From Acidimicrobiales bacterium (GTDB lineage Bacteria; Actinomycetota; Acidimicrobiia; Acidimicrobiales; DATDAH01): a stretch of 64,000 nucleotides of DNA. Each line of letters opens with the position of its first letter. Position 1 is the stretch's first letter. Under the pieces are notes generated by a model. That model had not been told where the DNA came from. It saw only the letters and a program-made list of their open reading frames with translations, and ran no database searches. This document shows positions 235 to 4,828 of the stretch, in pieces. A program made the position numbers and the translations under genes. The stretch covers positions 62,001 through 126,000 of the forward strand of contig JAEUJM010000017.1 of NCBI GenBank assembly GCA_016794585.1, written 5' to 3'.

Positions 235-1361
235 GCGATGCACCCGTCGTCGGACCGCCGACCGCGTGGGTCCACACCGGTTACACCCAGCAGCTGCACT
301 TCGGAGCCGGGGCCGTCGACCGCCTCGGGGAGGTGCTGAAGGGCCTCGGGGCGCGACGGGCGATGCTCATCACGACCGCGGGGCGCTTCCAGTCCGACGA
401 CGGCGCCCGGGTCCGCAAGGCGATGGGCCGCATCCTCGCCTCGAGCTTCGCCGAGGCACTCGCGCACGTCCCGACCACGGCGGTGCGCGAGGCGGGCCTC
501 GAGGCCCGGCGCGACGCCGTCGACGCGGTCGTCTCCTTCGGCGGCGGCTCCTGTGCCGACCTCGCCAAGGCCGTCTGCTACTTCAGTGAGCAGGAGTCGG
601 GCACGCCGGGCGCGTCCTACGCCGACCGCCCTGCGATCCTCCACGTCTCCGTGCCCACCACCTACTCGGGCGCCGAGCTCACCCCGTTCTTCGGCATGAC
701 CGACCCCGCCACCCGCCAGAAGCAGGGGGCGGGCGGCCCGACAATCGCCCCGATCGCGGCCGTCTACGACCCGGAGCTCACCCTCGCCACCCCGGCGCGG
801 GTGAGCGCCGAGACCGGGATGAACGCGCTGGCGCACTGCGTCGAGGCGGCGTGGTCGCCGACCCGTACCCCCGAGGCCGAGGCCATCGCCCTCGCCGGGG
901 CGCACCGCATCCACGCCGCGCTGCCGAAGGTGGTGGAGGCCCCGGACGACCTGGCCGCCCGCACCGACATGCTGCAGGGGGCGGTCCTCGGTGGGCGCTG
1001 CCTCCAGAACGGGTCCATGGGCGTGCACCACGGGCTGGCCCAGCTCGTGGGCGGCCGGACCGGCATCCCCCACGGCCTCGCCAACGCGATGATCCTGCCC
1101 CACGCCATCCGGTACAACGCCGACACCGTCCCGTGGGCCATCGCCGGCCTCGCCCTGTCCATGGGGGTGGCGGACCCCGCCGACGCCGTGGCCGACCTGG
1201 TCAGGCGCCTCGGTCTGCCGACCGGGCTGCGCGAGTGCGGCGTCACCGAGGAGGATCTCGACGCGGTGGCGCAGCTCTCCCAGTCCAACGGCAACGTCTT
1301 GAACAACCCGCGGCCGGTGTCCGAGGAGGACGCCCGGGCCATCCTCGCCGCCGCCTACTGA
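231..1361 (+). CDS. Maleylacetate reductase-like iron-type alcohol dehydrogenase
   Basis: 376 aa, a usual length for the iron-containing alcohol dehydrogenase superfamily. A nucleotide-binding Gly-rich segment (SFGGGSCADLAKA, about residue 103), PTTYSGAELTPFFG, and the helical-domain motifs GMNALAHCVEA (about 196) and GVHHGLAQLVGG...GIPHG match maleylacetate reductases, which reduce maleylacetate to 3-oxoadipate in aromatic degradation. The usual metal-site Asp of Fe-ADHs is Asn in GMNALAH, as I recall for maleylacetate reductases. The start is the ATG overlapping the stop of the deacetylase; an upstream in-frame start lies inside that gene. No ring-cleavage dioxygenase is in view, so the substrate is an inference. 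It converges with the GGDEF-EAL gene, overlapping it by 7 bp. Confidence 0.75.
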   Translation: MSDAPVVGPPTAWVHTGYTQQLHFGAGAVDRLGEVLKGLGARRAMLITTAGRFQSDDGARVRKAMGRILASSFAEALAHVPTTAVREAGLEARRDAVDAVVSFGGGSCADLAKAVCYFSEQESGTPGASYADRPAILHVSVPTTYSGAELTPFFGMTDPATRQKQGAGGPTIAPIAAVYDPELTLATPARVSAETGMNALAHCVEAAWSPTRTPEAEAIALAGAHRIHAALPKVVEAPDDLAARTDMLQGAVLGGRCLQNGSMGVHHGLAQLVGGRTGIPHGLANAMILPHAIRYNADTVPWAIAGLALSMGVADPADAVADLVRRLGLPTGLRECGVTEEDLDAVAQLSQSNGNVLNNPRPVSEEDARAILAAAY

Positions 1362-3730
1362 GGCTCGCCGACCGCCTCTTCGCGTGGGGTGGGGCCCACG
1401 TCCTCGAGGGTGGTCCCGTCGATGATGCGGGGGCAGCCTCGCTCGGCGAGCCAGGCCGTGATCTCGGCGGCCGTGCCCGGGCGACGGTCGACATAGCCCT
1501 GCGAGCGGTCACAGCCGAGCTCGGCGGCCAGGATGCGCGTGATCTCGTCCTCGATGCCCTCGGCCACGACGGTCAGTCCGAGGGTGGCAGCGAGGGTGAC
1601 GATGGAGGTCACGATGGCCTGGTCGTCGTCGTCGACGGCGAGGTCGGTGATGAAGGCGCGGTCGATCTTGAGCTCGTGCACCGGCAGGCGCTTGAGGTGG
1701 GACATCGACGAGTAGCCCGTGCCGAAGTCGTCGATCGAGAGGCGGACGCCGAGGCTGGCGAGGCGCTCGACGAGCGAGACCAGGTCGTCGGTGCGACCAC
1801 CGAACGCGCTCTCGGTGATCTCGAGGGTCACGCACTGGGAGGGAAGGCGGGCCTCCAGGATCGTGGCGTGGAGGGTGCGGGCGAGGTCCGGGTCCTCGAG
1901 CGCCTTGGGCGACACGTTCACCGACATCGCGACGTCGAGGCCGTCGGCACGCCATCGAGCGCATTGGGTGAGCGCGGTCCGCACGACCTGCTTCGTGAGC
2001 TCGCCGATCAGTCCGGTCTGCTCGGCGAAGGGGATGAAGCGGTCAGGTCCGATCCACCCCAGCTCGGGGTGCTCCCAGCGGGCCAGCGCCTCGAGCCCGA
2101 CGACCTCCCCGGTGTGCAGGTCGACCTGGGGCTGGTAGTGGACTGCCAGCTCCTGGCGCTCGAGCAGCTCCCGGAGGTCGTTGAGCAGGGCCAGGCGCCC
2201 TGGGCGGTCCTCCTGGTCCTCGCTCCCGTAGACCGCGATGTCGATGCCGTCGCGCTTGGCCCGGTACATGGCGACGTCGGCGGACTGGAGCAACGATGCG
2301 GCCCGGTCGGCTTCGCTGCTGTGGCAGATGCCGATGCTGACGCCCACGGCGAGGCTGAGACCGTCGACCTCGATCGGGTCGCGGAGGGCGGCCAGGAGCA
2401 GCCGGGCGACCCGCTCGGGCCGGTCCTCGCCCGGTGGGTCGTCGAGGAGCAGCGCGAACTCGTCCCCTCCGAGGCGTACGACCGTGTCACCCGAGGGGGT
2501 GGCGGCGTGGAGTCGCTGGGCGACCTCGCGGAGCACGCGATCACCGACGTCGTGGCCGAGGCCGTCGTTGATCTCCTTGAACCGGTCCAGGTCCATCAGC
2601 AGGAGCGCTGACTGGGGCGGATGCGTGCCGTCGAATCGCCCGGCGAGCTCACGCATGAGGTGGGAGCGGTTGGGCAGGCTGGTGAGGGGGTCGTGCAGGG
2701 CCTGGTGGCGGAGGTGCTCCCGGCTCGAGGCGAGCGCGGCGATCTGCTGCTCGAGGCGCTGGGTCAGCGCGGTGTTGTCCTGGTGGACGATGACCTGGCG
2801 CACGATCAACAGGAGGACGAGCGGCACGCCCACCCAGGTGAACACCGCCCCGAGGTGCCCGTCCCGGAGGTGGGTGGGGATCGCCAGCAGGACGAACACC
2901 GCCATCGGCACGTAGGGGAGCATCATCACCCACGAGGGCTGGACCTCGGAGGTGGCGACGTCGACCGCCGTGGTGCGCCCCCAGCGGGCGGCGAGGGCCA
3001 GGACGAGGAAGCCGGCGAACCAGCCGACGTTGAAGGGGCTGGTGGCGGCGGAGTCGGTGGTCGACAGGTAGGCGAAGGCAGAGTCGGCCAGAGCGAGGAG
3101 GGTGAGCCCGACGGCGATGGTGGCGACCGTCGGCCGGTAGGCCGCGAGCGATCGGGAGAGCACCGTGAGCGTCATCACGAGGATCACCACGTCGCCCGAG
3201 GGGTAGGCGATGGCGAGGACGAGGTCCGTGCCGGAACCGGCGTCGGCCGCGACGTGGCCCATCACGAGGAGCCAGCTCACCCCGATGCAGGCACAGGCGA
3301 TGGTGAGTCCGTCGAGGAGGGCGCGCACCCGGCCCGAGGTGCGCACGTTGGACGGGAACGTGAGCAGGGCGGCGGCGATGAGCGGGATCGACGCGAGGAA
3401 CCCGAGGTCGGCCAGCGACGGGAAGGGCGCCTCGTGGACGACCGACTCGTAGTAGGTCCAGATGAGCTGCCCGAGGCCCCACGAGAGCGTGCCGGCGCCG
3501 AGCAGGAGCCAGGAGCGCCGACTGCCGTCTCGCGCCCGCCCGGCCGCCCGGAAGCACGACCAGGCTGCCAGGAATGCAGCGAGCGTCTCGGCGACGTTGT
3601 CGAAGTCGCCCACGAAGGGCTCGCCGCCGAGGCCCGGGCCGACGACGGCGAGGTAGGCCACGACGGCCGCCACGACCGCGAGCGACGCGCGCCGCTGGGA
3701 CGCGGACATCGACGCGGGCGTCGCGGACAT
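1355..3730 (-). CDS. Membrane GGDEF-EAL cyclic-di-GMP protein
   Basis: 791 aa. The first roughly 300 residues hold eight or nine hydrophobic segments, a membrane sensor module of no recognised family. A GGDEF domain follows (DPLTSLPNRSHL, LDRFKEINDGLGHDVGD, VRLGGDEFALLL), then an EAL domain with EALARWEHP, NVSPKAL, EITESAF, IDDFGTGYSS, KIDRAFI and VAEGIED. Both active-site signatures are intact, so diguanylate cyclase and phosphodiesterase activity are both possible. The position of the allosteric RxxD arginine, just before GGDEF, is Pro (PSGD), so product inhibition at the I-site is probably lost. It stands alone on the minus strand with a possible leaderless, WhiG-like promoter. Confidence 0.93.
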   Translation of the reverse strand: MSATPASMSASQRRASLAVVAAVVAYLAVVGPGLGGEPFVGDFDNVAETLAAFLAAWSCFRAAGRARDGSRRSWLLLGAGTLSWGLGQLIWTYYESVVHEAPFPSLADLGFLASIPLIAAALLTFPSNVRTSGRVRALLDGLTIACACIGVSWLLVMGHVAADAGSGTDLVLAIAYPSGDVVILVMTLTVLSRSLAAYRPTVATIAVGLTLLALADSAFAYLSTTDSAATSPFNVGWFAGFLVLALAARWGRTTAVDVATSEVQPSWVMMLPYVPMAVFVLLAIPTHLRDGHLGAVFTWVGVPLVLLLIVRQVIVHQDNTALTQRLEQQIAALASSREHLRHQALHDPLTSLPNRSHLMRELAGRFDGTHPPQSALLLMDLDRFKEINDGLGHDVGDRVLREVAQRLHAATPSGDTVVRLGGDEFALLLDDPPGEDRPERVARLLLAALRDPIEVDGLSLAVGVSIGICHSSEADRAASLLQSADVAMYRAKRDGIDIAVYGSEDQEDRPGRLALLNDLRELLERQELAVHYQPQVDLHTGEVVGLEALARWEHPELGWIGPDRFIPFAEQTGLIGELTKQVVRTALTQCARWRADGLDVAMSVNVSPKALEDPDLARTLHATILEARLPSQCVTLEITESAFGGRTDDLVSLVERLASLGVRLSIDDFGTGYSSMSHLKRLPVHELKIDRAFITDLAVDDDDQAIVTSIVTLAATLGLTVVAEGIEDEITRILAAELGCDRSQGYVDRRPGTAAEITAWLAERGCPRIIDGTTLEDVGPTPREEAVGEPQ

Positions 3731-3807: not shown

Positions 3808-4221
3808 ATGTCGATCATCAAGATCAACGCCATCACCGTGCCCGCCGACAGCGGCGACGAGCTCGCCCAGCGCTTCGCGGCCCGTGCCGGTGCCGTGGAC
3901 GGCCAGGACGGCTTCGAAGGCTTCGAGCTGCTCAAGCCCACCGACGAGCGCACGACCTGGCTGGTCGTGACCCGCTGGCGTGACGAGGCCGCCTTCGAGG
4001 CGTGGCTGGCCTCGCCGGCCTTCGCCCACGGCCACCGGTCGGAGGGTGGCGGCGAGGGCGGCGGCCACCCTGGCGCTTCCGGTGGACACCCCGGCGCGTC
4101 CGGCGGTCACCCGGGCGCCGAGGGAGGGCACCCCGGCGGCGAGCGGCCGGTGGCGGTCGCCAGCGAGGTCTGGTCCTACGAGGTGGCTGGCGGCTCGGCG
4201 GGCGCCGGGGCGGCCGGCTGA
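3808..4221 (+). CDS. MhuD-like antibiotic-biosynthesis-monooxygenase domain protein with His-rich insertion
   Basis: 137 aa. The opening MSIIKIN, VVTRW and EAAFEAW segments follow the mycobacterial heme-degrading enzyme MhuD closely: Asn7 and Trp66 fall at the MhuD catalytic numbers, and His74/His76 bracket the place of the heme ligand His75. MhuD and IsdG-type enzymes are about 105 aa; the surplus here is a Gly/His insert (residues 79-112) with four HPG(A/G)(S/E)GG repeats spaced exactly seven residues, placed between the heme-ligand helix and the last strand (VASEVWSYEV). By homology it would bind and oxidatively open heme in the cytoplasm. It lies 9 bp before a small membrane-protein gene and is probably co-transcribed. 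Activity is inferred. Confidence 0.78.
   Translation: MSIIKINAITVPADSGDELAQRFAARAGAVDGQDGFEGFELLKPTDERTTWLVVTRWRDEAAFEAWLASPAFAHGHRSEGGGEGGGHPGASGGHPGASGGHPGAEGGHPGGERPVAVASEVWSYEVAGGSAGAGAAG
4066..4143 (+). repeat. HPGxxGG heptad repeat inside the MhuD-like gene
   Basis: Four 21-bp units encode HPGASGG, HPGASGG, HPGAEGG and HPGGE. The histidines are at residues 87, 94, 101 and 108. Codon choice differs between units, so this is a maintained protein repeat and not a fresh duplication. Confidence 0.9.
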
Positions 4222-4230
4222 CCACTGCCG

Positions 4231-4584
4231 GTGCTGCGTCTGCACGCCGACTGGGCGTGGGTGGTCGTCGGTGTCAATGCCGTGGCCGGGCTGTGGGCCC
4301 TGGCGGCCCAGTGGGTCCCCCGGCTGCGGGTGCGGGCGCTGTGGTGGGTCGTGGTCGCAGGCTGGGCCACCGTGGCCGTCCAGGTGGTGCTGGGCGTCCA
4401 GCTCAGCGCGGGCGAGAACCTCGAGGCCCCCGAGTTCCACGAGTTCTACGGCTTCGTGGCGCTCATCTCGGTGGGGCTCATCTACAGCTACCGCGCGCAG
4501 GTCAAGGAGTACCAGCACCTGCTCTACGGCGTGGGTGGTCTCTTCCTGATGGGACTGGCCCTGCGGGCCATCTTCCTGGCCTGA
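4231..4584 (+). CDS. Small four-helix membrane protein, possibly heme-binding
   Basis: 117 aa with four predicted membrane helices (about 8-28, 38-58, 72-87, 95-115). GTG start 9 bp after the MhuD-like gene. I do not recognise a named family. The second helix ends VAVQVVLGVQL and the third opens EFHEFYGFVALI; the QxxLG plus His pattern is reminiscent of one four-helix half of heme A synthase (CtaA), where a helix histidine ligates heme b. His6 and His70 are the only histidines near helices besides His96. Pairing with a heme-degrading homologue makes a heme role tempting but unproven. Confidence 0.7.
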   Translation: MLRLHADWAWVVVGVNAVAGLWALAAQWVPRLRVRALWWVVVAGWATVAVQVVLGVQLSAGENLEAPEFHEFYGFVALISVGLIYSYRAQVKEYQHLLYGVGGLFLMGLALRAIFLA

Positions 4585-4591
4585 GCGAGGG

Positions 4592-4828
4592 TCAGAGGTT
4601 CACCACGGGGCAGGTCAGCGTGCGGGTGATCCCGTCGATGAGCTGCACCCGGCTGACCACCATCTTGCCGAGTTCGTCCACGCTGGCCGCCTCGGCCACG
4701 GCGATCACGTCGTAGGGGCCGGTGACGTCGTCGGCCGACCGCACGCCGTCGATGGCGGCGACCTCGGCGGCCACCTGGCCGCTCCGCCCCACTTCGGTCT
4801 GGATGAGGATGTAGGCACGCACGGACAT
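4592..4828 (-). CDS. Stand-alone Lrp/AsnC ligand-binding (RAM) domain protein
   Basis: 78 aa, only the C-terminal AsnC_trans_reg (RAM) domain: AYILIQTEVG, VRSADDVTGPYDVIAVAEA, and VQLIDGITRTLTCPVV. There is no helix-turn-helix, which is normal for stand-alone RAM proteins that oligomerise and bind amino acids or other small effectors. Start ATG chosen because a -10 hexamer lies 8 nt upstream; longer in-frame starts would run through that promoter. It is divergent from the SGNH lipoprotein gene. Confidence 0.85.
   Translation of the reverse strand: MSVRAYILIQTEVGRSGQVAAEVAAIDGVRSADDVTGPYDVIAVAEAASVDELGKMVVSRVQLIDGITRTLTCPVVNL

Follow-up and report, generated by a model that had tools for sequence, protein, structure and literature searches.

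The window analysed here, a stretch of 64,000 nucleotides from an Acidimicrobiales contig, contains a gene for an ABM-fold (PF03992) protein resembling the heme enzymes MhuD and IsdG (3808-4221 on the plus strand, stop codon included; ATG start, 137 amino acids). Between the helix that carries its probable heme ligand and its last β strand lie four seven-residue repeats, each with one histidine. Does this loop bind additional heme or a metal, or is it a flexible spacer in which the histidines are incidental?

The protein has an MhuD-like core with an Asn-Trp-His triad

The protein scored 76.2 bits against the PF03992 profile (gathering cut-off, 23.1 bits; E = 2.2e-21), which places it in the ABM superfamily, and its best sequence matches in the PDB were all MhuD, with E-values of about 1e-19 over residues 1-80. 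An AlphaFold2 model built with 92 homologs showed a ferredoxin-like core (strands at residues 3-10, 36-42, 50-57 and 118-125; helices at 16-26, 60-67 and 70-80), with pLDDT values of 87-96 in the core blocks. The top Foldseek matches to this model were MhuD structures with heme (4NL5, 3HX9 and 6DS7; TM-scores of 0.84-0.86 by target length). An MhuD-like core had been proposed in the first-pass annotation, and the profile, sequence and fold matches upheld that proposal.

The conserved heme-pocket residues had been listed as Asn7, Trp66 and His74/76. Among 161 unique homologs, the distal Asn7 (codon at 3826-3828, plus strand) and Trp66 (4003-4005, plus) were invariant and His76 (4033-4035, plus) was kept in 159, whereas His74 was kept in just 108; the triad thus stood, with His76 as the better ligand candidate. 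The HMMER alignment set His74 opposite His75 of MhuD. The IsdG triad is Asn7/Trp67/His77, with the histidine at Trp+10 (quoted in PMC5746218). Because His76 has this same spacing from Trp66, it, rather than His74, is the likely candidate for the axial ligand. Three homologs (L148, L163 and L165) have lost the Trp+10 histidine or have the ligand helix rebuilt as Gly-rich sequence, mostly with a histidine nearby in the linker; in these the ligand may have migrated, or heme may no longer be bound. The genome encodes another ABM protein (L002), in whose matched stretch the triad was not visible.

Scores against the NCBIfam equivalogs for heme oxygenases (HmuQ and the named IsdG family) were far below their cut-offs, at 34.2 bits (cut-off, 130) and 33.4 bits (cut-off, 115), and we therefore place the protein in an MhuD-like subfamily and not among orthologues of the named heme oxygenases. 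Judged from sequence and fold, the assignment of the core as an MhuD/IsdG-type heme-binding enzyme is well supported. The product of 3808-4221 probably degrades heme, a catalytic activity that we infer.

The His repeat occupies a hypervariable linker predicted to be flexible

The linker comprises residues 77-113 (37 amino acids; 4036-4146, plus strand), was delimited from the homolog alignment and the model, and is predicted to be disordered. Repeat search, in-frame reading and spacing together defined four GGHPG(A/G)(S/E) units at 4060-4143 (plus strand), which read, in order, GGHPGAS, GGHPGAS, GGHPGAE and GGHPGGE. Tandem Repeats Finder reported two arrays, one of period 21 at 4059-4118 and one of period 42 at 4059-4138. 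The repeat histidines are residues 87, 94, 101 and 108, confirming the spacing of exactly seven that had been noted at first reading; four histidines placed at random in a 37-residue linker would be equally spaced with P = 0.003. The linker ends at a conserved region containing the last strand (P-V-x-x-x-[SA]-E-[LV]-W-S-Y, residues 114-125; 4147-4182, plus strand; strand 118-125 in the model), in which Pro114, Glu120 and Trp122 are found in 155, 153 and 152 of the 161 homologs, respectively. The array is thus a real in-frame insert between ligand helix and last strand. When the DNA of its own genome (5.49 Mb) was searched with a pattern of two close GHPG-type motifs, three overlapping matches fell in the enzyme gene and one lay outside it, with a spacing that was not a multiple of three.

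In the model, the loop (residues 81-117) directly follows helix 70-80, which carries His76, and its pLDDT of about 52-56 supports the proposal that it is flexible. The proposal that MhuD has no such repeat beside the ligand helix was also supported. The insert was not peculiar to this protein: the linker from His76 to Pro114 ranged from 8 to 57 residues in 157 homologs (median, 13), and the longer linkers were built from diverse Gly/His-rich units, including HPGG, HPGASGG, AHPGAEGG, HPHGG, (GH)n, HAGHGHGG and SHGE. These alignments place the protein in a large actinobacterial family whose linker is hypervariable, the insert being one of the states of that linker. The histidine spacing in relatives was 2, 4, 5, 6 or 8, with 4 and 2 commonest, and the period of seven was private to the window protein; since the spacing differs among relatives, we dropped the functional weight that had been placed on the exact period.

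About 80% of the sampled homologs lacked a His-rich linker, and the core function therefore does not depend on it. At least two linker histidines were present in 19 of 76 sequences of an order-wide sample, taken from the best match downward. The named-genome set was gathered with patterns that included one from the repeat, and its share of His-rich linkers is not an unbiased frequency. Some relatives had a repeat histidine replaced, by Gln in L086 and by Arg in L091. Natural variants include L047, with 11 histidines, L087, with 6, and L017, with a short linker. In three Arthrobacter proteins whose cores are identical (L034 and L069) or nearly so (L065), there were approximately 3, 1 and 0 SHGE-type units; this difference, as read from the sequences, is a recent change in copy number.

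Histidine is enriched and the repeat units are preserved at the protein level

The main rival to a binding role is that the linker is a neutral, solvent-exposed and flexible spacer, grown by replication slippage in GC-rich DNA, with histidine incidental. The hypervariable length, the differing SHGE number on like cores and the lack of linker histidine in most members are consistent with such a spacer, as are the few long linkers without histidine (L054 and L148). Against it stands, first, the composition of the linkers. Those of at least 30 residues contained 11.3% His, compared with 2.4% in neighbouring genes, and 20 of these 21 linkers had at least two histidines. Gly-rich composition was allowed for by comparison with Gly-rich windows elsewhere in the neighbouring genes: at least two histidines were found in 23 of 27 Gly-rich long linkers and in 15 of 50 such windows (p = 3.6e-6), a difference that fell to p = 0.04 once relatives were collapsed at 85% core identity.

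Secondly, unlike His-Gly units appear to have converged. On a tree of the cores only, the state of having at least two linker histidines required 15 changes, an exact number that is soft because the tree is short of columns, and at least 5 changes were forced by starred branches. This pattern suggests that similar but differently built His-rich loops arose several times independently in relatives (about 15 changes, at least 5 forced). A search of 296 genomes of the order for DNA encoding GGHPGGHPG placed 10 of 15 matches, in 6 of 11 genomes, inside the enzyme family. The five non-ABM matches lay mostly in frames without coding-type GC3, the case of L206 being ambiguous; we attributed them to chance and left them out.

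Thirdly, the units differ in DNA more than in protein. It had been claimed that synonymous differences between the units of the window argue for selection on the protein repeat. The differences are real, with 1, 2 and 5 of 7 first, second and third codon positions variable, respectively. Within-protein pairs of units from 17 proteins gave a near-saturated pS of 0.68 and a pN of 0.04, the latter biased low by the use of an HxG[GA] motif to select the units; these values support preservation at the protein level. With synonymous sites near saturation, most units are not fresh slippage copies; the exceptions were L177 and L149, whose units were identical in DNA. The histidine codons of 52 family units were CAT in 28 and CAC in 24, as compared with 7.5% CAT among the histidine codons of the window genes, a comparison that spans different genomes. 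This excess of CAT, which also speaks against a neutral spacer, may arise in addition from selection against unstable DNA repeats. Altogether, we consider a neutral spacer somewhat less likely than a binding role.

Comparison with known heme and metal proteins

MhuD of Mycobacterium tuberculosis (Rv3592; PDB 3HX9/4NL5) shares with the window protein the ABM fold, Asn7 and Trp66 under the same numbers, a ligand histidine on the following helix and an end strand with a PV motif. The two differ in that the MhuD ligand His75 is at Trp+9, whereas His76 is at Trp+10; in that MhuD, when the alignment is read onward, has about 6 residues before its PV motif, as compared with 37 before Pro114; and in that MhuD has no His repeat in the place of the four units. 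Staphylococcus aureus IsdG and IsdI are alike in Asn7, Trp66/67 and His76/77, with the Trp+10 spacing, but their identity in the fold alignment is only about 17% and they are without the His-Gly loop.

It is also conceivable that the loop captures a transition metal (heme-released iron, or Ni, Co, Zn or Cu) as a metal buffer or chaperone, with no tethering of heme. The (GH)n, HPHGG and HAGHGHGG linkers resemble known metal-binding His-rich stretches, and the flexible His-rich stretch is shared with metallochaperones such as HypB, SlyD and Hpn-like proteins, which differ in fold and pathway. A lone histidine in every seven residues, however, chelates less well than clustered histidines, histidine binds ferrous iron poorly, and no metal-homeostasis gene was recognised among the conserved neighbours; we consider metal capture of this kind rather improbable.

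A precedent for metal binding is haloarchaeal PitA (ChdC, His-rich linker, ABM), in which a His-rich linker adjoining a heme-binding ABM domain binds Co2+ (PMC5746218). The likeness is one of analogy only: like PitA, a protein of a heme pathway, the window protein has a His-rich linker joined to an ABM domain of the heme-binding kind. The PitA linker joins two domains, whereas that of the window protein sits inside the ABM domain; the PitA ABM domain keeps the ligand histidine alone, whereas the window protein keeps the full triad; and the window ORF, a single domain of 137 amino acids, has no fused ChdC domain.

Further precedents are proteins with engineered histidines. An artificial His-tag on MhuD shifted the KD for the second heme (the diheme form) by three orders of magnitude and produced oligomers (PMC8801480), and HupZ bound heme through its tag and oligomerised (PMC7865249). 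Both are heme-utilisation proteins of a related type that bind heme and oligomerise differently when they carry a His cluster, but these are artificial terminal tags and not a natural internal loop. Literature searches on GHHPH heme binding and on Plasmodium His-rich repeats returned no results.

Genomic context

The gene downstream (4231-4584, plus strand) is co-directional with the enzyme gene and encodes a 117-residue membrane protein, a neighbour conserved at 50 of the 161 loci. It has no Pfam family and was modelled as four helices (pLDDT 93.7), with an invariant His70 close to the start of helix 3 and a near-invariant His5 close to that of helix 1. Its top fold matches included cytochrome b561-type (Dcytb) and STEAP proteins, with weak E-values of 0.4-0.8, and a resemblance to b-type heme membrane proteins is a lead only. 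Kinship with heme A synthase (CtaA/COX15) was unsupported (hhalign probability, 1.2%), and an association of this neighbour with His-rich linkers (17 of 30 vs 27 of 120) was set aside as confounded by phylogeny. The next gene (4592-4828, minus strand), conserved at 31 loci, encodes a protein with an AsnC/Lrp ligand-binding domain and, it appears, no DNA-binding domain. On the other side, a divergently transcribed gene (1355-3730, minus strand) encodes a 791-residue membrane protein that, by eye, is GGDEF/EAL cyclic-di-GMP-like. At 18 related loci (e.g. L184), a conserved neighbour some 3 kb upstream of the gene for the enzyme resembles, by eye, a PIG-L/mycothiol S-conjugate amidase. One conserved neighbour is, we take it by eye, a GTP-type PEPCK, and others presumably belong to general metabolism.

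No heme-uptake genes were recognised among the conserved neighbours. A scan of the 200 bp upstream at 161 loci for IdeR/DtxR boxes found no excess over shuffles, and iron regulation through such a box was dropped. The genome has a ChdC homolog as a separate gene, and canonical heme oxygenase (PF01126) was not found in it.

Many ABM proteins bind non-heme substrates, and a quinone or polyketide-like substrate with a loop unrelated to heme would suit both the low NCBIfam scores and the absence of heme genes among recognised neighbours, but we judge it the least probable account of this protein, given that the triad is intact in essentially all 161 members and that, in both sequence and fold, no solved protein is closer than MhuD.

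A possible tether for heme

We tentatively favour, at somewhat less than an even chance, an MhuD/IsdG-like enzyme that degrades heme and in which a convergently evolved His-Gly tether would bind extra heme, a metal being a possible alternative ligand. The probabilities that we attach to this tether, to a neutral spacer and to metal capture overlap slightly. In the mechanism that we propose, the loop after the ligand helix would have grown into a flexible tether rich in Gly and His, whose evenly spaced histidines could weakly hold further heme (or a transition metal) beside the pocket. This might raise the local supply of heme or buffer its excess, and might possibly bridge dimers. By analogy with PitA and the tagged proteins, binding of heme or metal by the loop, which the first reading had also raised, is plausible.

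That relatives independently grew similar, differently built loops suggests that these enzymes carry a 'His-tag' of their own for heme or metal, which as such is apparently unstudied. It is possible, if doubtful, that a subset of actinobacterial MhuD/IsdG-like enzymes repeatedly evolved a disordered Gly/His-rich tether beside the heme ligand that would recruit or store extra heme and set the balance between mono- and di-heme occupancy, as a natural parallel to what the His-tag does in MhuD. Heme titrations of IsdG/MhuD-type enzymes need tag-free protein. The family offers natural variants in length and histidine number, in which the core hardly changes while a single site carries 0 to 11 histidines, and a possible control of heme loading by such a loop in IsdG/MhuD enzymes is therefore directly testable.
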